A program made the position numbers and the translations under genes. 64,000 nucleotides of DNA from an uncultured Desulfobacter sp. Lineage in GTDB: Bacteria > Desulfobacterota > Desulfobacteria > Desulfobacterales > Desulfobacteraceae. The DNA lies in NCBI RefSeq assembly GCF_963665355.1, contig NZ_OY762229.1:1054001-1118000 (forward strand), written 5' to 3'. The notes beneath the pieces are model-generated. The model saw only the letters and a program-made list of their open reading frames with translations, was not told the DNA's origin and did no database searches. Of the stretch, positions 1 through 16,319 are shown in pieces (the stretch's first letter is position 1; every line of letters begins with the position of its first letter).

Positions 1-1
1 T

Positions 2-262
2 TATAACTGGCGCAGGATGATTGAGGAAGTTATTCTCAACTCCGAGGTGGATTTAAGAATTCTTCTGGGTAAAACCGAAATCACCGGCGAACGGCTTTTG
101 TATATGCAGCCCGGGGATGTCATCCAGCTGGATAACGACGCCTCTGATCCTTTGTCCTGTTTTGTGGGCGGTCTGGTCAAGCTGACGGGTTATATCGGTA
201 TCCAGCGGGGGTTTCAGGCATTTAAAATCAAAGATAAAATTATAACCGACTGTGAGGGGTAA
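2..262 (+). CDS. fliM: Flagellar motor switch protein FliM, C-terminal fragment
   Basis: The window opens inside this gene: the frame starting at base 2 is open from the first codon and stops with TAA at 260-262. The 86 visible residues form a SpoA (surface presentation of antigens) type domain, with the pattern of FliM and FliN C-termini: an acidic start, an LLG-x-T-E-I-T-G stretch, then a hydrophobic end with QAFKI. FliM is part of the cytoplasmic C-ring, where it binds phosphorylated CheY and sets rotation direction. The stop is two bases before the start of fliN, so the two are probably co-translated. The N-terminal CheY-binding peptide and the middle domain lie outside the window, so this could in principle be a FliY-like variant. 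Position before fliN-fliO-fliP makes FliM most likely. Confidence 0.85.
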   Translation, partial: YNWRRMIEEVILNSEVDLRILLGKTEITGERLLYMQPGDVIQLDNDASDPLSCFVGGLVKLTGYIGIQRGFQAFKIKDKIITDCEG

Positions 263-7239: not shown

Positions 7240-8133
7240 GTGGATCAGGCAAAAGGACTGCGACAGATGGCCAGGACAAGTGCTATCCAAAAACGGGAAC
7301 AAAACGGGGCTTCCAACGGCAGTACATACCCCAGGGTCATTGCTGTGACCAGCGGCAAGGGCGGGGTGGGCAAAACCAATATTGTGGGAAACCTGGCCGT
7401 GGCCCTGACCCGACTTGGTAAAAGGGTGGTGATCATCGATGCCGATGTGGGTTTAGCCAATATTGACATCGTATTTAACCTGAGGCCCAAATACAATATT
7501 CGCCATCTGGTATCCGGGGAAAAAACATTAGCCCAGGTGCTGGTGACAACGGATCATGGCATTGGGATTCTTCCCGGAGGCTCCGGTTTTGCCGATCTGA
7601 CCCGTTTCAGTGAAGGTGAAAAACTGACATTGCTGTCGGAGTTTGAGGCTTTTTCCGACATGGCAGATATCATTCTGCTGGATACCGGGGCCGGTATTTC
7701 ATCCAATGTACTTTACTTTAATGCATCTGCGGACCAGTGCCTGGTGGTGGCCACCACGGAACCTACCTCCATCACCGATGCCTATGCCCTGATGAAGGTC
7801 ATGTCCCAGGAATACGGAACCAGGCATTTTAAACTGGTGGTGAACATGGCGGACAACCAGGCCGGGGCAAAAAAAGTATACGGATCTTTGAGCAACGCCC
7901 TGGATAAATTTTTAAAAAATGTGGTTCTGGAATACTGCGGGTATGTACCCTTTGATCCGGCCCTGCAAAAGGCGGTTCGAAACCGCAGCATACTTCTGGA
8001 TACTGTCAAGCACAGCCCTGCAGCCGATGCCATGTCCGGACTTGCAAAAACTCTTCTTAACGACGGCAGGACCAATCAGAACCAGGGGAATCTGACCTTT
8101 TTCATGAACAGGGTCTTTGCGGCCGCCCAATGA
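7240..8133 (+). CDS. flhG: Flagellum number regulator FlhG (MinD-like ATPase)
   Basis: A 297-residue ParA/MinD-family ATPase. The deviant Walker A motif is in VTSGKGGVGKTNIVGNLA (about residues 31-48), with IDADVGLANIDIVF after it and DTGAGISSNVLYF as the Walker B region. The N-terminus reads MDQAKGLRQM, matching the DQAxxLR motif with which FlhG activates FlhF GTPase. A C-terminal basic amphipathic stretch (NLTFFMNRVFAAA) fits a membrane-targeting helix. FlhG limits flagellar number. The start is GTG at 7240, immediately after the flhF stop, and the end overlaps the next start as ATGA at 8130-8133. Confidence 0.95.
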   Translation: MDQAKGLRQMARTSAIQKREQNGASNGSTYPRVIAVTSGKGGVGKTNIVGNLAVALTRLGKRVVIIDADVGLANIDIVFNLRPKYNIRHLVSGEKTLAQVLVTTDHGIGILPGGSGFADLTRFSEGEKLTLLSEFEAFSDMADIILLDTGAGISSNVLYFNASADQCLVVATTEPTSITDAYALMKVMSQEYGTRHFKLVVNMADNQAGAKKVYGSLSNALDKFLKNVVLEYCGYVPFDPALQKAVRNRSILLDTVKHSPAADAMSGLAKTLLNDGRTNQNQGNLTFFMNRVFAAAQ

Positions 8134-8921
8134 GCGGTTATGGCAATTTTAAAAAAGGAAACAATAATATTTCCATGAAATATCCCCGGAAAAACAATCA
8201 AGCGGCATGGGAAGCCTGGCGGCAGGAAAGCATTGTAAATTATGCTTATCTGGTCCGGTATATCGCTTCACGCTTTGCCATGCGTCTGCCATCCAGCGTG
8301 CTTTTTGACGAACTGATGTCAGCCGGCTCCCTGGGGCTCATTGACGCAGTGGACAAATTTGACCCGGGCAAGCATGTCAGCCTTGAAACCTATGCCCGCT
8401 ATCGTATCAAGGGAGCTATTCTGGATGAACTTCGCAGCATGGACACCTATTCAAGATCCATGCGCAAAAAAATCCAGGACATTACACGGGCTGCGAAAAC
8501 CATTGAAGATGAAAAGGGGCGGCCGGCGGATGACGATGAAATCAGCCAGGTATTGGGCGTGGATCTGGAAACGTACCAGAATATGCTCACCGACATCCAT
8601 GGGGCTGCAGTCCTCAGCCTGGATGATTTCATTAAGACCAAGAAAAATGAGGCGTATTCCCAGACCCGCTTTCAGGCCGGACTAAGCGGAGAAGAGAACC
8701 CCGAAGAGGATTTTTACCGGGCAGAATTGAAATCTGTTCTGGTGGAGGCCATCAAAAAATTGACGGAAAAAGAGCAGATTGTTATCTCCCTTTACTATTA
8801 TGACGAGCTGACCTTGAAAGAGATTGGCGAAGTATTGTCTTTGACGGAATCCCGGATCTGTCAGATCCATACGGCGGTTCTGCTGAAACTGCACGCCAGC
8901 CTGAATAGTTATGGAGAATAG
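8130..8921 (+). CDS. fliA: RNA polymerase sigma factor for flagellar operons (FliA/WhiG type)
   Basis: A 263-residue sigma-28 family protein with regions 2, 3 and 4. Region 2 has LPSSVLFDELMSAGSLGLID and KFDPGKHVSLETYARYRIKGAILDELR, both characteristic of FliA. Region 3 follows at about residues 120-165, and region 4 contains LTLKEIGEVLSLTESRICQI, a helix-turn-helix for the -35 element. It directs transcription of late flagellar and chemotaxis genes. The ATG at 8130 overlaps the flhG stop; an internal ATG at 8175 is an alternative start. No FlgM anti-sigma gene is seen in this window. Confidence 0.94.
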   Translation: MSGYGNFKKGNNNISMKYPRKNNQAAWEAWRQESIVNYAYLVRYIASRFAMRLPSSVLFDELMSAGSLGLIDAVDKFDPGKHVSLETYARYRIKGAILDELRSMDTYSRSMRKKIQDITRAAKTIEDEKGRPADDDEISQVLGVDLETYQNMLTDIHGAAVLSLDDFIKTKKNEAYSQTRFQAGLSGEENPEEDFYRAELKSVLVEAIKKLTEKEQIVISLYYYDELTLKEIGEVLSLTESRICQIHTAVLLKLHASLNSYGE

Positions 8922-8943: not shown

Positions 8944-9023
8944 GTTTCTAAACATTAAATATTTGTAATAGTTCATTTCAAATGAGTTCATAGAGTTTAT
9001 TTTTTTGACTACAAGGGGGAGTT

Positions 9024-10853
9024 ATGTCAGACCCGATTTTGGAAGAAGAAGATGATCTAATTTCCCAGGATGATATTGATAAAATGCTGAATATGTCCTC
9101 CGACGATGACGATGTCGGCGAGTTGTCCCAGGACGATATCGACAGCCTGCTCAGCGACCCTGAACCGGATGTGGATGACCCAGAGACAGGCGAACTGTCC
9201 CAGGATGACATTGATCGCATGATGGCTGGTGATACACCGGATAATGGTGATAGTGCAGAAGATGACGGCGAATTATCCCAGGACGATATCAACAGCCTGC
9301 TCAACGACCCTGCACCGGATACAGATGATTCTGATGACGGCGAAGAGGAGGTCGCTGAACTGTCCCAGGATGACATTGATCGTATGATGAGCGGCGATGC
9401 ACCGGACGAAGATAGTCTTGAAGATGACGGTGGTGAGTTATCCCAGGACGATATCGACAGCCTGCTCAACGGCCCCGCACCGGATGCAGATGACTCCGAT
9501 GACGGCGAAGAGGAGGCCGCTGAACTGTCCCAGGATGACATCGACCGTATGATGGCGGGAGATGCCCAGTCAGATGACACCTCCGAGGATGATGACGAGT
9601 TCATTTCACTGGAAGATATCCAGGTTGCCATGAGTGCAGACACCCAGGACAATGATGCATTCGGTTCCCAACCAGACCCCGCTCCAGTAGTGGAAACAGA
9701 ACCTGAACCTGAGGCGTTGGAAGCGCAATCAAACCAGGAAGATCTCGAGGAGCAAAACGAAACCAACGAAAACGCTGACGATGCATCAATGGCGGAAGTA
9801 TCGGATTTGGAGGAAGATCCCTTTGATGAGCCCATAGATGAAAGCCAGGCAGCAGACATGGCAGATTGTATGATTACCCAGGAAGCCATGGATGCCCTGA
9901 TTGAGGCTGGTTTTCCGGCTCCTGATATCCCACAGACAGATGCAGGAGACAGCGAAGGCAATCTGTTGGAGGAAACAGAACCAGCCGCTGCAACGGATGC
10001 TGGTGCCACGAATGATGCCGCCGCAGAAGATGAAAATGACGTCACCCAGGAAGATATTGATGCTCTTCTCCAGGAGTCAGATGAAACGGACGGGTCTCTG
10101 GATGAAGATATCCTAATATCCCAGGACGACATTAATACCCTGCTCATGGCCGCGGATCAGGAGGATGACGACGTTCTTGCAGATATTGCCGGAGAAGACA
10201 ACGCGCCTGACCTGGAAGACCATCTTGATGATCTTGAATCCGATTCGGCGGATCAGGTGGTCCTGGAAGGTATAGACGGTACCGGCGCAGAGGACTCCGC
10301 CCCTGCTAAGGCTAAAAAAGGCGGGAAAATAAAAGCCCTTCTCAAATCAAAGGTGTTTCTTGCGGCAGCTTCCATATTGCTGTTCATGGGCATATCCGTT
10401 CCTTTGAGTTATTTTCTGTTTTTTTCAGGTGGCTCTGGGCCAAAGCCACAGCCGGGAAGACAGACCGCATCCCTGACCGAGATTGATCTTATCCGGGACG
10501 GGCAGGCAAAAGGTTCCGCGGATGTACCGGCTCTGCCGCCCAGCCGCAGGCCGGGGACCATTGTATTGACGGATTTTATAATTCTGGCTTCTGATCAAAG
10601 CCAGACCATGACCTATGTGTATGCCGACGTCTCTATTGATTATTCCGATCAAAGGGCTTATGATGAAATAAACAGTAACATCGCCTTTTACCGGGATTTG
10701 ATTTACGGGGCGATTCATTCCCGGCTGATCTCGGAAAAAAACAATGAGGTGACCGAAGCTGATCTGCTCTGGGGTGTGGAAGCTTCACTGAAAAAAGTGT
10801 TGCCGCCCCAATATATCGACAAGATCAGTTTCAAATCTTTTAAGGCAACTTAA
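9024..10853 (+). CDS. FliL-like protein with a long acidic N-terminal array of SQDDID motifs
   Basis: A 609-residue protein in two parts. Residues 1-425 are very acidic and hold seven regular copies of (I/L)SQDD-I-(D/N)-x-(L/M)-(L/M) between about residues 12 and 190, a degenerate copy near 195, and looser copies near 284 (ITQEAMDALI), 340 (VTQEDIDALL) and 366 (ISQDDINTLL). A lysine-rich stop-transfer stretch precedes one membrane helix (about 443-466). The C-terminal 100 residues (PGTIVLTDFIILASD to SFKSF) resemble the periplasmic domain of FliL, which sits with the MotAB stator. The repeat resembles the N-terminal FliM peptide (SQxEIDALL) that binds phosphorylated CheY. A CheY-binding or stator-linked role is inference. 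A strong ribosome-binding site supports the start. Confidence 0.7.
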   Translation: MSDPILEEEDDLISQDDIDKMLNMSSDDDDVGELSQDDIDSLLSDPEPDVDDPETGELSQDDIDRMMAGDTPDNGDSAEDDGELSQDDINSLLNDPAPDTDDSDDGEEEVAELSQDDIDRMMSGDAPDEDSLEDDGGELSQDDIDSLLNGPAPDADDSDDGEEEAAELSQDDIDRMMAGDAQSDDTSEDDDEFISLEDIQVAMSADTQDNDAFGSQPDPAPVVETEPEPEALEAQSNQEDLEEQNETNENADDASMAEVSDLEEDPFDEPIDESQAADMADCMITQEAMDALIEAGFPAPDIPQTDAGDSEGNLLEETEPAAATDAGATNDAAAEDENDVTQEDIDALLQESDETDGSLDEDILISQDDINTLLMAADQEDDDVLADIAGEDNAPDLEDHLDDLESDSADQVVLEGIDGTGAEDSAPAKAKKGGKIKALLKSKVFLAAASILLFMGISVPLSYFLFFSGGSGPKPQPGRQTASLTEIDLIRDGQAKGSADVPALPPSRRPGTIVLTDFIILASDQSQTMTYVYADVSIDYSDQRAYDEINSNIAFYRDLIYGAIHSRLISEKNNEVTEADLLWGVEASLKKVLPPQYIDKISFKSFKAT

Positions 10854-10866
10854 TTTTAGGGAACAA

Positions 10867-11169
10867 ATGACCACAGTTCATGGACATAACCAGATTTTTC
10901 AGCAATCCGGTCTTGCCCAGGAGTTGACCCACCAGATCCATTCCCCGAAACCGGATCCTGCCCAGGCCGCAGTGCAACATCAGAATCAGCAGGTGGTGGA
11001 AAACACAACTGTTCAGGAAAGCGAAGAATCCATTGCTTTAAAACAGGAAAAAGAGAAGGAAAAACGGCAAAAAGCTCTTAGGGCCAAACGAGCAAAGAAA
11101 CAGGACCCCAAAGACGACCTGCCTCCGGATCCGGATGGACCGGGCCGGCTTTTGGACATCACTGCATGA
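10867..11169 (+). CDS. Small hydrophilic protein of unknown function in the flagellar locus
   Basis: A 100-residue hydrophilic protein without membrane segments. It is Gln/His-rich in the first half (GHNQIFQQSGLAQELTHQIH) and then has a highly charged Lys/Glu/Arg helix (about residues 57-78, LKQEKEKEKRQKALRAKR), ending in a proline-rich tail with RLLDITA. I do not recognise a family. It sits thirteen bases after the FliL-like gene and overlaps the next gene by four bases, so it is almost certainly expressed with the flagellar operon. The spacing, the codon use and the preceding GGGAACAAATG favour a real gene. Function unknown; the charged helix could be an interaction segment. Confidence 0.75.
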   Translation: MTTVHGHNQIFQQSGLAQELTHQIHSPKPDPAQAAVQHQNQQVVENTTVQESEESIALKQEKEKEKRQKALRAKRAKKQDPKDDLPPDPDGPGRLLDITA

Positions 11170-11762
11170 TGCTGCCGGTCCCCACTGAGTTTCTTGTTGT
11201 CCTGCTATTTTTCATTGATCTGTTTTTAATCTTTCTGTTGTTTCTTTTTATCCGGCGGGTCAAGCGGCTTCAACCAGGTTCGGCACCTGTACCGGGCATC
11301 GACCTTAGCGACATAGTCGCCCAGACCCGTGAAGAAGCAAAAATTGTGGCCAGGGAAATATTGGCTGAAACGTCCGAGACCATCGAACCCATTTTGGAAG
11401 CCTCAAAGGAGGCGGCCATAGAGTTTGAGCGCCTGGTGCAGGAGAAACAAGCACTGACCCGGAAACTTGACCAATCCCTGGATTCGAAAATTATCAGCAT
11501 CAACCTGCTGTTGTCCAGGGCCAACGCCCTTTACAGCCAGCTTGAAAATCAGCACAACTCCCTGCTCAATACCCAGCCCAAAGGGGGAACAGCCTTATTT
11601 CACAAAGAGACTGATGTCCTTGACCAACAGCAGCGTATTATAGATCTTTACTATCAGAAAATAGATATTGACACCATTGCAGAAAAGCTTTCCATACCCA
11701 AAGGAGAGGTTGCACTTGTCATTGATCTCAAGGAAAAGTTTATTGCAATGGAGAAATCCTGA
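11166..11762 (+). CDS. DUF2802-like membrane-anchored coiled-coil protein
   Basis: A 198-residue protein with an N-terminal membrane helix (about residues 7-28, FLVVLLFFIDLFLIFLLFLF), a long predicted coiled coil (about 50-130) and a C-terminal helix-turn-helix-like segment: IIDLYYQKIDIDTIAEKLSI followed by PKGEVALVIDLKEKF. This layout matches the small proteins annotated DUF2802 that are found beside flagellar or chemotaxis genes in Proteobacteria; the assignment is by architecture and context and was not tested by search. The start ATG overlaps the previous stop and the stop overlaps the start of the FliK-like gene. The C-terminal HTH resembles that of SwrB-type and flagellar accessory proteins, but DNA binding is doubtful for a membrane-anchored protein. 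Confidence 0.6.
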   Translation: MMLPVPTEFLVVLLFFIDLFLIFLLFLFIRRVKRLQPGSAPVPGIDLSDIVAQTREEAKIVAREILAETSETIEPILEASKEAAIEFERLVQEKQALTRKLDQSLDSKIISINLLLSRANALYSQLENQHNSLLNTQPKGGTALFHKETDVLDQQQRIIDLYYQKIDIDTIAEKLSIPKGEVALVIDLKEKFIAMEKS

Positions 11763-13339
11763 TGATTCCCAGCCAGTTTCTTACGCTTCTGAAAATTCCC
11801 GGTGGCGACCAGAAACAATCCGGGTTATCCGGCCCCATTAACCTGAAACCCGGTCGGATTATTGACGCAAAGATACTTGACGTCAAACCCGAAAATCATG
11901 TTCAACTGCTTTTATCTGGAAAATCACAAACCACGCACAGTTCCGGGGAATTTATCCGAAATCGGACTCCATTGTTGTCTGGCCAGGAAAAAGCTGCGGT
12001 TGCAGCGTCGAAAAACCTTTCAAGTGAATCAGGACAACCCCAGAGCACCGGTCAAAAAGTTCAAGCGTCAACTTTACTGCCATTGAAGCCGGGTATGTCG
12101 CTGACGCTGATCGCTGTTGCCACCCGGGAAGGCCTGGTTCTTAAGCCGGTCCCATCCTCGCCGTTTTCCTCTTCTCTGTCCCTGTCTTCCGCCAAGACCG
12201 ATGCCACACTTAAGATTCTTCCCGGAACACAAAAATATTCGGCATTACCCGCCCCGGGTATAACACCCGGCCAGACAGTGGATGCAAAAGTCCTTGATGT
12301 TACACCCCAGAACCGGGTTCAACTGCTTGTGGGCGCTCAGAAACTGACGGTTTCCACTCAACTTACTTTGACTCCCGGCACGGATATTCCCATGAAGGTT
12401 GTCCGATCCCAGGACGGTATCGCGTTAAAGCCGGTTCCTATGTCCACAGGCAGTGCTCCCCCTGCCGTGAATACTGAACGGCCAACACCTTCGCTTCCGT
12501 CCATCATTCCGGACTCACCTCCACTTTCCGGCACGGAAAAACCTTTCTCGGCCCCCTCTTTTCAATCCGTCTCCCTGGCAAATATTTTCCAGGGGTTGGA
12601 TGCACTTCGCCAGATCCGGGAACCTCTGTTGAATGATATTCTTATGGGACTTTCCCTTAAATCAGATGTCCGGGATGATCAGTTTCTGCCTAAAATTATA
12701 GAGAATATGGGCCTTTTATTTGAAAAGAAACTGGCAAGCGCCATTAAAGACACCAGGGATAAAAAAACGGTGGCGCATATGATCAATCAAATGGCCGACC
12801 AGGACGTAAAAGCAGCCTCTCTGTCTCTTTCCGGCAGGGAAAATGACCCGGGAAAGGCCTCCATATTTAAACATATTGCAGATGCATTGGAGAACTTTGC
12901 CCAGTTAAATGTCAAATCCGGGGAGAGCGAACACCCCCAGGATGGTGCACGATTTCTACTGCCATTCCCCGTCTGGACGGAAAATGGATTTAATTTTGGC
13001 CAGCTCATGGTGGACTTGGGCAAGACAGGCACTGCCAATACACAAAAAAAAATGCTCAGTATCTCCTTTCTATTGAACATGACCGCCCTTGGCCCCTTAC
13101 GCGCGGATTTTTCCACTCTGGATAAAACCATTACCGGCAGGTTTCTTCTAGAAAATCAGGAAACATGTGACTATCTTGCCCCCAAAATTTCAAATTTAAA
13201 ACAGCGTCTGTACGGGATCGGATACCAGGCCGGCAATATTGATTGCCAGGTCGCCCGGCCGGAGCAGATCGCTCCGGCCAGTTTACTGCTTTCCATGAAA
13301 GAGTCCGATGTCATTCAGGGCCTGAATATTGTGGTATGA
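11762..13339 (+). CDS. fliK: FliK-like flagellar hook-length control protein
   Basis: A 525-residue protein. The C-terminal 130 residues look like the FliK substrate-specificity domain: LPFPVWTENGFNFGQLMVDL, MLSISFLLNMTALGPLRADF and LKQRLYGIGYQAGNIDCQVA. The N-terminal half carries two related modules, LKPGRIIDAKILDVKPEN-x-VQLLL (about residues 28-55) and ITPGQTVDAKVLDVTPQN-x-VQLLV (about 163-190), each followed by a TPG/KPG-M...LKPVP segment, suggesting an internal duplication. FliK measures hook length and triggers the FlhB switch. The next gene is a short FlhB-like protein that overlaps its stop (ATGA at 13336), which fits that role. No canonical fliK is visible elsewhere in the window. 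Confidence 0.72.
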   Translation: MIPSQFLTLLKIPGGDQKQSGLSGPINLKPGRIIDAKILDVKPENHVQLLLSGKSQTTHSSGEFIRNRTPLLSGQEKAAVAASKNLSSESGQPQSTGQKVQASTLLPLKPGMSLTLIAVATREGLVLKPVPSSPFSSSLSLSSAKTDATLKILPGTQKYSALPAPGITPGQTVDAKVLDVTPQNRVQLLVGAQKLTVSTQLTLTPGTDIPMKVVRSQDGIALKPVPMSTGSAPPAVNTERPTPSLPSIIPDSPPLSGTEKPFSAPSFQSVSLANIFQGLDALRQIREPLLNDILMGLSLKSDVRDDQFLPKIIENMGLLFEKKLASAIKDTRDKKTVAHMINQMADQDVKAASLSLSGRENDPGKASIFKHIADALENFAQLNVKSGESEHPQDGARFLLPFPVWTENGFNFGQLMVDLGKTGTANTQKKMLSISFLLNMTALGPLRADFSTLDKTITGRFLLENQETCDYLAPKISNLKQRLYGIGYQAGNIDCQVARPEQIAPASLLLSMKESDVIQGLNIVV

Positions 13340-13617
13340 CCATGGCACCTAAAAATAAAATAAAAAAAGCTGTTGCCCTGAAATATGAGAGACTTAAGGA
13401 CACTGCACCGAAAGTTTCTGCCAAAGGTCAGGGAAAGGTGGCTGAAAATATAATTGCCCTGGCGCTGGCCCATGGCGTGCCGGTAAAGGACGATCCAGAC
13501 CTGGTGGAGGTCCTGACATCCCTTGATATCGACCAGGAGATTCCGGCTGAAATATACGTGGCCGTAGCCGAGCTCCTCGCGTTTGTTTATGGTGCCAATG
13601 CGGATAAAAAATCCTGA
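13336..13617 (+). CDS. Stand-alone FlhB C-terminal-domain paralogue (FhlB/YlqH type)
   Basis: A 93-residue protein homologous to the last quarter of FlhB. Compare VSAKGQGKVAENIIALALAH and IPAEIYVAVAELLAFVYG with the matching end of FlhB (VVAKGAGAVAENIKKIAREN and FEYYQAVAELLAYVYGL). The Asn-Pro-Thr-His cleavage site is absent, and the N-terminal strand reads IKKAVALKYE instead. Such short FlhB homologues (called FhlB, FlhX or YlqH) can replace the FlhB cytoplasmic domain in some species and often sit next to fliK. It overlaps the FliK-like stop by four bases and ends the flagellar operon. Confidence 0.88.
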   Translation: MTMAPKNKIKKAVALKYERLKDTAPKVSAKGQGKVAENIIALALAHGVPVKDDPDLVEVLTSLDIDQEIPAEIYVAVAELLAFVYGANADKKS

Positions 13618-14450: not shown

Positions 14451-16319
14451 TCAGGCATTGGGTTTTGTCAAATCGATGGTAATGGCATAAGCACCACCTT
14501 CAAGTTTGGCCATCAGCGAATATTCGCCCTTTTCAAACACTTTGATCATGGCCCGGTTGGAGGAGAGAACATCTGCTGTTACCTTTACGGCCCCGCGCTC
14601 CTTTGCCAGACGGCAGAGCATCCTGAACAGAAAGGAGGCAATGCCTAATCCCTGGTACTCCTCGTCTACAACAAAGGCGATATCCATGAACGGTTTGTCC
14701 GGATGCTTGGCAATCCTTGCCTCGGCTATGATGGTCTGGTTGCCCGGTTCGCCGATAAGACCCACCACGGACAGCACCTCCCTGTAGTCCACATTGACAT
14801 AGGCCTGCATTCTGGCATGGGGCATGGTTTTGATGGGTGCAAAGTAACGATAGTAGATGGCGTCATCGGAGAACCGGTAAAACAGCCTGCGCATCTGCTC
14901 TTCATCCGACGGCTTGATGGCCCTGAACCACACCTGCAGATCATCCTTGAACCTGTGGGTAGTTTCGATCTCCTTGGGATAAAAACGGGCGGAGTCGGCA
15001 ATAAATATCTGGTCCGGATAGAGCAGATTCTCTTTTTTGCCGCCCGCCACAAGGCCTGGGCGGTCTTCGGGATGGGCAATCTCAATGAGAGCCTGGGCGC
15101 GCTCCCGCAGGCTTCTGCCCTTGATGTGGGCCACCCCGTATTCCGTGACCACAAGATCGATGCATTCCGGAAAGCTGAGCAGGTCCGGGGTACTATCAAG
15201 AAATAGACGGATATTGGGCGCACCGTCCCGGTTCCGGCTGGGCAGGGCCACAATATTATACCCGCCCCGGGAGAGCTCGGCGCCATTGAGTATATCAGCA
15301 ATCTGGCCCGGATCTGCGGAAATATTGGAGGCGCTGGAATGAAGAGCTGCCCGGCCGGACAGGTCCACCCGCCGCACCGGCAGAATCATGACAAACTTTT
15401 TATTGCGTCCGATCTGCAGCGGGTTAAATACCTTGTCAATGCCCTGGAACTCCACCATGGGATTTTTGTCAAGCCAGGCCATCAATTTCTGGGAACCTAA
15501 AGCATAGGTTGTCAAAGACCGCCCCGTGAACATCCCCTTTTCCCGGTTGGTAACCGCCCCGCTTTCAGCAAGCTCCATGAGTGCATCCGTGAAAAACGGG
15601 GTATGAATGCCCAAATCTTTTTTCTTGGCCAGGTGCCGGGCCAGGGCCTCGTAAATGGGACCATAGGTAAAGGCCACGCAAGACCCGTCATCAATCACCG
15701 AGGCCGAATTTTCGGCAATCTTGTCAAACACCGGATCCACGGGGTACCGTGGGAAATAAAAGGGCGGAACTTGAGCTTTGACCAGCATGTCGAATTCGTC
15801 AATATGAACAAAGGTGTCCCCCAAGGTAAAGGGAATGCGTTCATTGATTTCAGCCACCACAAAACGGGCCTGCTTCATGACTTGCCTTGCCACATCCACA
15901 CCAAGCCCAAAGCTGCAATAGCCGCTGTTGTTGGGCGCAGTGATCTGGAGAAACGCCACATCAATGGGTATCAGTCCGTCCCGCATGAGCAAAGGCACCC
16001 TGGAGAACCGGGCAGGAATCAGGTCCACCAGGCCTGCGGTGATGGCCTGGGCCGACACCCATCCGGAAAAAAATGTTTTCAAGCGGTAGCGATGGGATTC
16101 CAGCGCCTTATATGACACGGCATCTCCGAAGCTGACCAGCTGTATCAGGGTCAGGTCCTCCAGGTTGTAGCCTTGGGCGCTCATGAGCGCATTCACAAGG
16201 GTTCGGGGTTCGGACGTCCCCGTGCCAATAAAAATATGCATGCCCGGCTCGATCTTGGACAACACTTTATCCGTGGACACACAGCGCGTTTTCCAGGCAG
16301 GTATTTTTTTATTGAACAT
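14451..16319 (-). CDS. Acetyl-CoA hydrolase/transferase fused to a GNAT acetyltransferase
   Basis: A 622-residue two-domain protein. Residues 1-430 form an acetyl-CoA hydrolase / 4-hydroxybutyrate CoA-transferase fold (IEPGMHIFIGTGTSEPRTLV, VDVAFLQITAPNNSGYCSFG, VVTEYGVAHIKGRSLRERAQ). Residues about 465-622 are a GNAT N-acetyltransferase domain (IKPSDEEQMRRLFYRFSDDA, then VDEEYQGLGIASFLFRMLCR, which is the acetyl-CoA-binding R/Q-x-x-G-x-G/A region). Such fusions occur in anaerobic Desulfobacterota. They probably move CoA between organic acids, but the substrate and the GNAT target cannot be read from the sequence. It is downstream of the YcaO gene by eight bases on the same strand, so the two are probably one operon. 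Confidence 0.85.
   Translation of the reverse strand: MFNKKIPAWKTRCVSTDKVLSKIEPGMHIFIGTGTSEPRTLVNALMSAQGYNLEDLTLIQLVSFGDAVSYKALESHRYRLKTFFSGWVSAQAITAGLVDLIPARFSRVPLLMRDGLIPIDVAFLQITAPNNSGYCSFGLGVDVARQVMKQARFVVAEINERIPFTLGDTFVHIDEFDMLVKAQVPPFYFPRYPVDPVFDKIAENSASVIDDGSCVAFTYGPIYEALARHLAKKKDLGIHTPFFTDALMELAESGAVTNREKGMFTGRSLTTYALGSQKLMAWLDKNPMVEFQGIDKVFNPLQIGRNKKFVMILPVRRVDLSGRAALHSSASNISADPGQIADILNGAELSRGGYNIVALPSRNRDGAPNIRLFLDSTPDLLSFPECIDLVVTEYGVAHIKGRSLRERAQALIEIAHPEDRPGLVAGGKKENLLYPDQIFIADSARFYPKEIETTHRFKDDLQVWFRAIKPSDEEQMRRLFYRFSDDAIYYRYFAPIKTMPHARMQAYVNVDYREVLSVVGLIGEPGNQTIIAEARIAKHPDKPFMDIAFVVDEEYQGLGIASFLFRMLCRLAKERGAVKVTADVLSSNRAMIKVFEKGEYSLMAKLEGGAYAITIDLTKPNA

Follow-up and report, generated by a model that had tools for sequence, protein, structure and literature searches.

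The window analysed here is a 64,000-nucleotide stretch of the genome of an uncultured Desulfobacter sp. (assembly GCF_963665355.1, contig NZ_OY762229.1, forward-strand positions 1,054,001 to 1,118,000). At 9024-10853 on its plus strand lies an open reading frame of 609 amino acids, which we call the array gene, in which an N-terminal array of FliM_N-type motifs, one transmembrane helix and a C-terminal FliL domain follow one another. An earlier sequence-only reading of this DNA, whose coordinates of 9055-10147 span the array and stop short of both ends of the gene, had described a FliL-like protein with about ten copies of a FliM-type CheY-binding motif, seven of them regular. The strict pattern [ST]Q.[DE][ILVM][DNE].[LMIF][LMFI] recovers nine copies, with pattern starts at residues 14, 35, 59, 85, 114, 140, 169, 341 and 366 (window positions 9063, 9126, 9198, 9276, 9363, 9441, 9528, 10044 and 10119). 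Eight of these, rather than seven, are SQDDI(D/N) copies and one is TQEDIDALL; together with two looser copies, ISLEDIQVAM at residue 194 and ITQEAMDALI at residue 284, the total comes to about 11. The features of the gene are as follows.

9024..10853, plus strand: whole gene, FliL-domain protein with an N-terminal FliM_N-type motif array (609-residue open reading frame)
9024..10328, plus strand: predicted cytoplasmic acidic region, residues 1-435 (composition; the model of residues 1-210 shows coil and short helices)
9060..9089, plus strand: motif 1, ISQDDIDKML (pattern; modelled helix, residues 15-22)
9123..9152, plus strand: motif 2, LSQDDIDSLL (pattern; modelled helix)
9192..9563, plus strand: 165-bp tandem DNA repeat, 2.3 copies, two motifs per unit
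9195..9224, plus strand: motif 3, LSQDDIDRMM (pattern; modelled helix)
9273..9302, plus strand: motif 4, LSQDDINSLL (pattern; modelled helix)
9360..9389, plus strand: motif 5, LSQDDIDRMM (pattern; modelled helix)
9438..9467, plus strand: motif 6, LSQDDIDSLL (pattern; modelled helix)
9525..9554, plus strand: motif 7, LSQDDIDRMM (pattern; modelled helix)
9603..9632, plus strand: degenerate copy ISLEDIQVAM (non-helical in the model)
9873..9902, plus strand: degenerate copy ITQEAMDALI (sequence)
10041..10070, plus strand: motif 8, VTQEDIDALL (pattern)
10116..10145, plus strand: motif 9, ISQDDINTLL (pattern)
10353..10424, plus strand: predicted transmembrane helix, residues 444-467, preceded by a K-rich stretch (sequence; helix 2-31 of the C-terminal model)
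10554..10850, plus strand: periplasmic FliL domain, residues 511-609 (profile comparison, PDB profile search, fold)

When residues 1-430 were shuffled 20,000 times, the strict motif occurred 0.00135 times on average and never more than once, against nine times in the real sequence. A degenerate DNA version of the pattern, run over the whole 5.64-Mb genome, gave 14 matches: the array gene accounts for nine and the FliM N-terminus for one, with four elsewhere; its backward control gave three. The first seven copies are spaced 21-29 residues apart, and the 165-bp tandem repeat is a likely source of changes in copy number. An open reading frame on the minus strand (8978-10147) was set aside as an antisense shadow of the repeat. 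In an AlphaFold2 model of residues 1-210, built without an alignment and of low confidence (mean predicted local distance difference test score, pLDDT, 59.5; predicted template modelling score, pTM, 0.14), short helices form on all seven strict motifs in that range, starting at the motif Q, with coil elsewhere; the degenerate copy at residue 194 is non-helical.

The C-terminus is a FliL domain, an assignment that holds despite the failure of direct scans: neither Pfam nor NCBIfam gave a FliL family (PF03748 included) for the 609-residue protein at E values up to 1. It is carried by profile comparison, a PDB profile search and the predicted fold. A profile-profile alignment (hhalign) of 23 orthologue C-termini (alignment A1) with 16 ordinary FliL proteins (A2) gave a probability of 95.2 and an E value of 2.4e-8, and in a wider alignment (A4) 24 of 31 domains match PF03748 at E ≤ 0.01. 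Searched against the PDB with hmmsearch, A1 returned three hits up to E 10, the best two being FliL (7sgn, E 0.0042; 9hmf, E 0.016). The AlphaFold2 model of the C-terminal part has a mean pLDDT of 75 and a pTM of 0.57, with ten-residue block means of 75-97 from residue 71 of the model onward and under 50 at 32-63, and its best eleven Foldseek matches are all FliL (7sgn, 9hmf, 6ahq, 6ahp), followed by stomatin SPFH domains. The FliL-like C-terminus first proposed thus reappears in both profile search and fold, with one amendment to the identity of the protein. Since an ordinary fliL adjoins fliM in the same genome (L047:8648-9256, just before fliM), the array protein is a FliL paralogue, a second copy placed after fliA, and not the only FliL of the cell. 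It shares with FliL (PF03748) a transmembrane helix and a periplasmic domain of the FliL fold, but where FliL has a short cytoplasmic tail it has a motif array of about 435 residues. A third FliL-domain frame, of 330 amino acids, is present in this genome as well (G000:C2:2314332-2314622), and a frame of 278-364 amino acids with a third FliL-type match occurs in 31 of 36 genomes of the genus and family.

The region ahead of the helix is acidic: residues 1-435 are 36% D+E and 1.8% K+R. Its placement in the cytoplasm, as first proposed, is supported by the positive-inside rule, by which more K/R residues lie on the N-terminal side of the predicted helix in 85 of 89 orthologues, with a tie in two and the reverse in two.

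These 89 orthologues come from a search for the C-terminal domain, which matched in 39 of 59 genomes of a close set (E ≤ 0.01) and in 96 of 389 genomes of a class sample (E ≤ 0.001). The protein was read from 88 of those 96 and from one genome of the close set (G012). Left out were G014 (split frame), G013 (contig end, with six strict motifs in the remaining part) and G202, G362, G364, G072, G361 and G373 (partial matches, short frames or a contig edge); short reads of only 43 and 81 residues (L129 from G051, L131/L034 from G014) were dropped. The orthologues hold 530 motifs in total, from 0 to 16 each, and 78 of the 89 carry at least one. Eight of the proteins are cut at the N-terminus, and their motif counts are lower bounds. 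Eleven orthologues, from families f49 and f56, have no motif; in each of these 11 genomes 1.0-2.0 kb separate flhG from the FliL match downstream of it, a position that suggests the same locus as that of the array gene. Searching the phylum with A4 gave matches in 215 of 395 genomes; this order was thinly sampled in that set, and among the matches listed, frames longer than 400 amino acids occur only here (G000, G055), while the remaining frames measure 123-330 amino acids. In 20 FliL-like stretches chosen from the phylum search (19 genomes, of which G059 belongs to the same order; L207 and L210 included), a similar pattern found no motif. The array-bearing FliL paralogue is real and clade-wide, in one order of sulfate-reducing bacteria. 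Among the titles and abstract openings listed by searches of the open-licence papers of PubMed Central, we found no description of a FliL with a FliM-type array; the parts are of known kinds, in a combination for which we found no description in that literature.

Is the motif really of the FliM type? We built a profile from 40 array 22-mers, out of 78 (one per protein), and searched 177,635 distinct PDB sequences. Eight hits came back up to E 10, and the first was the N-terminus of Salmonella FliM (8umd, residues 3-22, E 0.0042), followed by GON7 (E 0.012) and a 20-residue FliM chain (4iga_B, E 0.018) from what we take to be the CheY-FliM peptide complex of Thermotoga. The GON7 match is taken as chance and the weaker hits as unrelated. 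The test is not blind, because the 22-mers were chosen with a FliM-like pattern; what it indicates is that little else in the PDB resembles the array motifs. With this rank order, the assignment to the FliM N-terminal type made at the outset is supported at the sequence level.

A comparison with the local FliM N-terminus, also suggested by that reading, came out differently. The genome's own fliM lies at L047:9264-10262, and its N-terminus, outside the window, reads MSEILSQDEVDSLLDGL. This and 20 further FliM N-termini, a selection from 218 genomes with FliM, all read [ST]Q[DEN]EVDSLL, whereas the array motifs follow SQDDIDxLL; of the 530 copies, 503 have D at position 4, and at position 5 492 have I and 2 have V. 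The array keeps a consensus of its own, distinct from FliM at positions 4-5, and because of that difference the idea of the array as a mere copy of the local FliM was dropped. With the N-terminal CheY-binding motif of FliM (EIDAL/EIDALL) the array has in common the [IL]SQx[DE]IDxLL amphipathic helix; it differs in repeating this helix, as many as 16 times within a single membrane protein, and in having D-I for the E-V of the local FliM. Between copies within a protein, the ratio of nonsynonymous to synonymous differences (pN/pS) is 0.11 in the motif core (positions 1-6), a value biased low because the copies were found by pattern, 0.21 at positions 8-9 and 0.70-0.79 at position 7 and in the flanks, with pS at 0.69-0.80 across all positions. 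We also note another short-motif array in this genome: a 569-residue frame on the minus strand (L050, G000:C2:4290700-4294700) carries a run of DDLSxLV-type short motifs and, as judged from its translation alone, possibly a DNA-binding N-terminus.

The neighbours of the array gene in the window are flagellar for the most part.

1..262, plus strand: 3' end of fliM (PF02154 match for fliM)
7240..8133, plus strand: flhG, a MinD-type ATPase and possible partner, two genes upstream of the array gene
8130..8921, plus strand: fliA (Pfam and NCBIfam scans)
10867..11169, plus strand: orf100, a conserved 100-residue open reading frame that follows the array gene immediately (24 of 25 loci, not L115)
11166..11762, plus strand: DUF6115-like protein (Pfam 24.7 bits, below the 27-bit cut-off)
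11762..13339, plus strand: FliK-like protein (Pfam scan)

We take flhG to be so named from its place after flhF and from its sequence. No Pfam family matches orf100 at E ≤ 1e-4, and the DUF6115-like protein is presumably SwrB-like, coming soon after fliA as SwrB does in Bacillus. Across 25 named records, including Desulfobacter vibrioformis, D. latus, Desulfospira joergensenii and Desulfobacula, the order flhB-flhA-flhF-flhG-fliA-array-orf100-DUF6115-like-fliK is kept as far as the contigs reach, with two exceptions. In L112 no flhB match precedes flhA, and L115 is a contracted flagellar locus with no matches for flhB, most of flhA (reduced to its last residues, 644-699), fliA, orf100 and fliK around the array gene.

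We propose, at a probability of about one half, that the protein is a second, motor-associated FliL whose cytoplasmic tail serves as a multivalent binder of phosphorylated CheY (CheY-P). The FliL domain would hold the protein in the periplasm beside the stator and basal body, and the single transmembrane helix would connect it to a long, flexible, acidic tail in the cytoplasm. Each amphipathic SQDDIDxLL helix, like the N-terminal helix of FliM, could offer one site for activated CheY. Many such low-affinity sites around the motor would raise or buffer the local CheY-P, and might either feed FliM or compete with it; a local reservoir seems to us likelier than a simple decoy. FliL forms rings around stators, and if the array protein does the same, hundreds of sites per motor are possible. 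According to a passage of PMC9126983 that cites Afanzar 2021, FliM_N increases CheY-P close to the core of FliM ahead of the productive contact; the same paper places FliM_N in the alpha4/alpha5 groove of CheY. Carried by a FliL-type protein, an array might have this effect from the membrane side, and faster switching, buffered noise or sequestered CheY-P could each result.

Genome comparisons lean towards CheY as the ligand and are not proof. CheA has no match (E ≤ 1e-5) in 5 of the 88 paralogue-bearing genomes with CheA data, namely G034, G023, G235, G176 and G037, whose proteins hold 4, 2, 2, 0 and 2 motifs (Mann-Whitney p 0.009). CheW was found at E ≤ 0.01 in 17 of 22 genomes checked, and the five without it are exactly the CheA-less five. 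All five have fliM, and the three that were read (G034, G023, G037) keep its FliM_N motif; G113, of the same genus as G235, has 6 array motifs. G176 is uninformative since its whole family has none, and two of the five genomes are 80-84% complete. In 80 genomes (nine of the 89 dropped: the eight cut proteins and G012, for which there is no CheA count), the count of motifs tends to rise with the count of CheA genes (Spearman 0.54, p 2e-7), a relation also found under permutation within families with nine single-family genomes pooled (p 5e-5) and within family f1 (rho 0.42, p 0.003, n = 48).

Several results weigh against the CheY-P proposal. The Spearman coefficient drops to 0.32 (p 0.004) once genome size is removed, and independent contrasts on a FastTree tree of 120 residues give r 0.22 (p 0.049), with p 0.17 when size is also removed; because of this last value we rejected the strong claim that array size tracks chemotaxis genes. 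Of the 89 orthologues 11 are motif-less, although CheA is present in ten of the genomes concerned, and 2-4 motifs persist in four of the five CheA-less genomes. The flagellar locus of one of these five, G034, is contracted: just the end of flhA is left, and only about 2 kb lie between fliM and flhG downstream of it, so that loss of the flagellum may be under way in this genome. The array gene sits with flhF-flhG-fliA, with no adjoining che genes in the stretches read, and its consensus is unlike that of FliM at positions 4 and 5. Only tentatively, then, do we extend the proposal to a clade-wide motor part, a FliL paralogue bearing a dense FliM-type brush that would act as an evolvable local reservoir of CheY-P, its size set by motif number and shrinking with the loss of chemotaxis.

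Besides CheY-P, the FliM N-terminus has a second known partner, FlhG, which is encoded two genes upstream and which the sequence-only reading had left out. FliY/FliN belongs to the C ring and bears a single motif copy. An N-terminal EIDAL motif of the same kind on this other flagellar protein is described in sections of PMC6946799 and PMC12826062, and sections of PMC12826062 and PMC11236974 give CheY-P and, in monotrichous bacteria, FlhG as partners of the FliM N-terminus, with B. subtilis FlhG binding FliY instead. The main rival reading, which we consider unlikely but by no means negligible, is accordingly that the array, in the manner of HubP, draws FlhG to the membrane where the flagellum sits and thereby governs how many flagella there are or where they are placed. 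The gene order fits: 21 of 25 loci have flhG upstream, separated from the array gene by fliA in 20 of them and with no fliA match in L115, and the other four contigs start too close. In C. jejuni the C ring affects the polar placement of FlhG, with no stable contact detected there, as part of PMC6946799 reports, and the retention of FliM_N in the three CheA-less genomes read points the same way. The landmark proteins HubP and FimV are, like the array protein with its 36% D+E and tandem repeat, membrane proteins with a long acidic cytoplasmic region, repeat-bearing in HubP. HubP clients include FlhF and FlhG, and the imperfect acidic repeats of HubP vary in number between related species, according to portions of PMC12918733. 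The array protein is nevertheless reversed in orientation, with its N-terminus in the cytoplasm by the sequence rule, and its repeats are FliM_N-type motifs; a Pfam scan found neither the periplasmic LysM-like domain, the periplasmic part having the FliL fold and no Pfam family in that scan, nor the C-terminal TPR domain of FimV, in whose place stands the FliL domain. Moreover, all 20 genomes tested have FlhG, among them the 11 motif-less ones and four of the five CheA-less ones (G235 was outside the set), so that FlhG does not track the array. With FlhG in all 11 motif-less genomes and CheA in ten, the presence or absence of either gene was rejected as the sole explanation of where the array occurs.

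CheY-P and FlhG might also compete for the array and couple control of flagellar number to signalling state. Both are known FliM_N partners (parts of PMC12826062 and PMC11236974), and the FliM_N motif kept in G034, G023 and G037 implies a use apart from CheY-P; the scheme is more complex and seems to us improbable. We give slightly less credence again to the idea that neither protein is the ligand, and that the motifs instead bind a different response regulator or some protein of the C ring, or serve for self-association. The array departs from the E, V of all 21 FliM N-termini at positions 4 and 5 (D in 503 and V in 2 of 530), but the I at position 5 is compatible with CheY, because Salmonella FliM has I there (SQAEIDALL in the PDB alignment) and binds CheY-P. 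Neutral, functionless expansion of a low-complexity acidic tail would fit the variable copy number, the tandemly repeated DNA and the 11 motif-less orthologues, yet it is hardly credible given a motif kept in 530 copies over 89 genomes while synonymous sites diverge (pS about 0.7), a contrast that selection by pattern biases.

In models of switching, CheY-P meets the motor at FliM and FliN. If the array bound CheY-P, a membrane-anchored series of up to sixteen sites per chain would alter the local CheY-P level as well as response time and noise, and natural variants already differ in valency. Should FlhG be the ligand, the array would represent a scaffold of a new type for flagellar number, in bacteria where HubP was not looked for. 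With either ligand, experiments could tell apart the two uses known for the FliM N-terminus.

Two further genes were noted after fliK. A small protein at 13294-13614 (plus strand), consisting of the C-terminal part of FlhB alone (PF01312 positions 261-335), ends the flagellar run, and at 14454-16319 (minus strand) an acetyl-CoA hydrolase/transferase is fused to a GNAT acetyltransferase domain.
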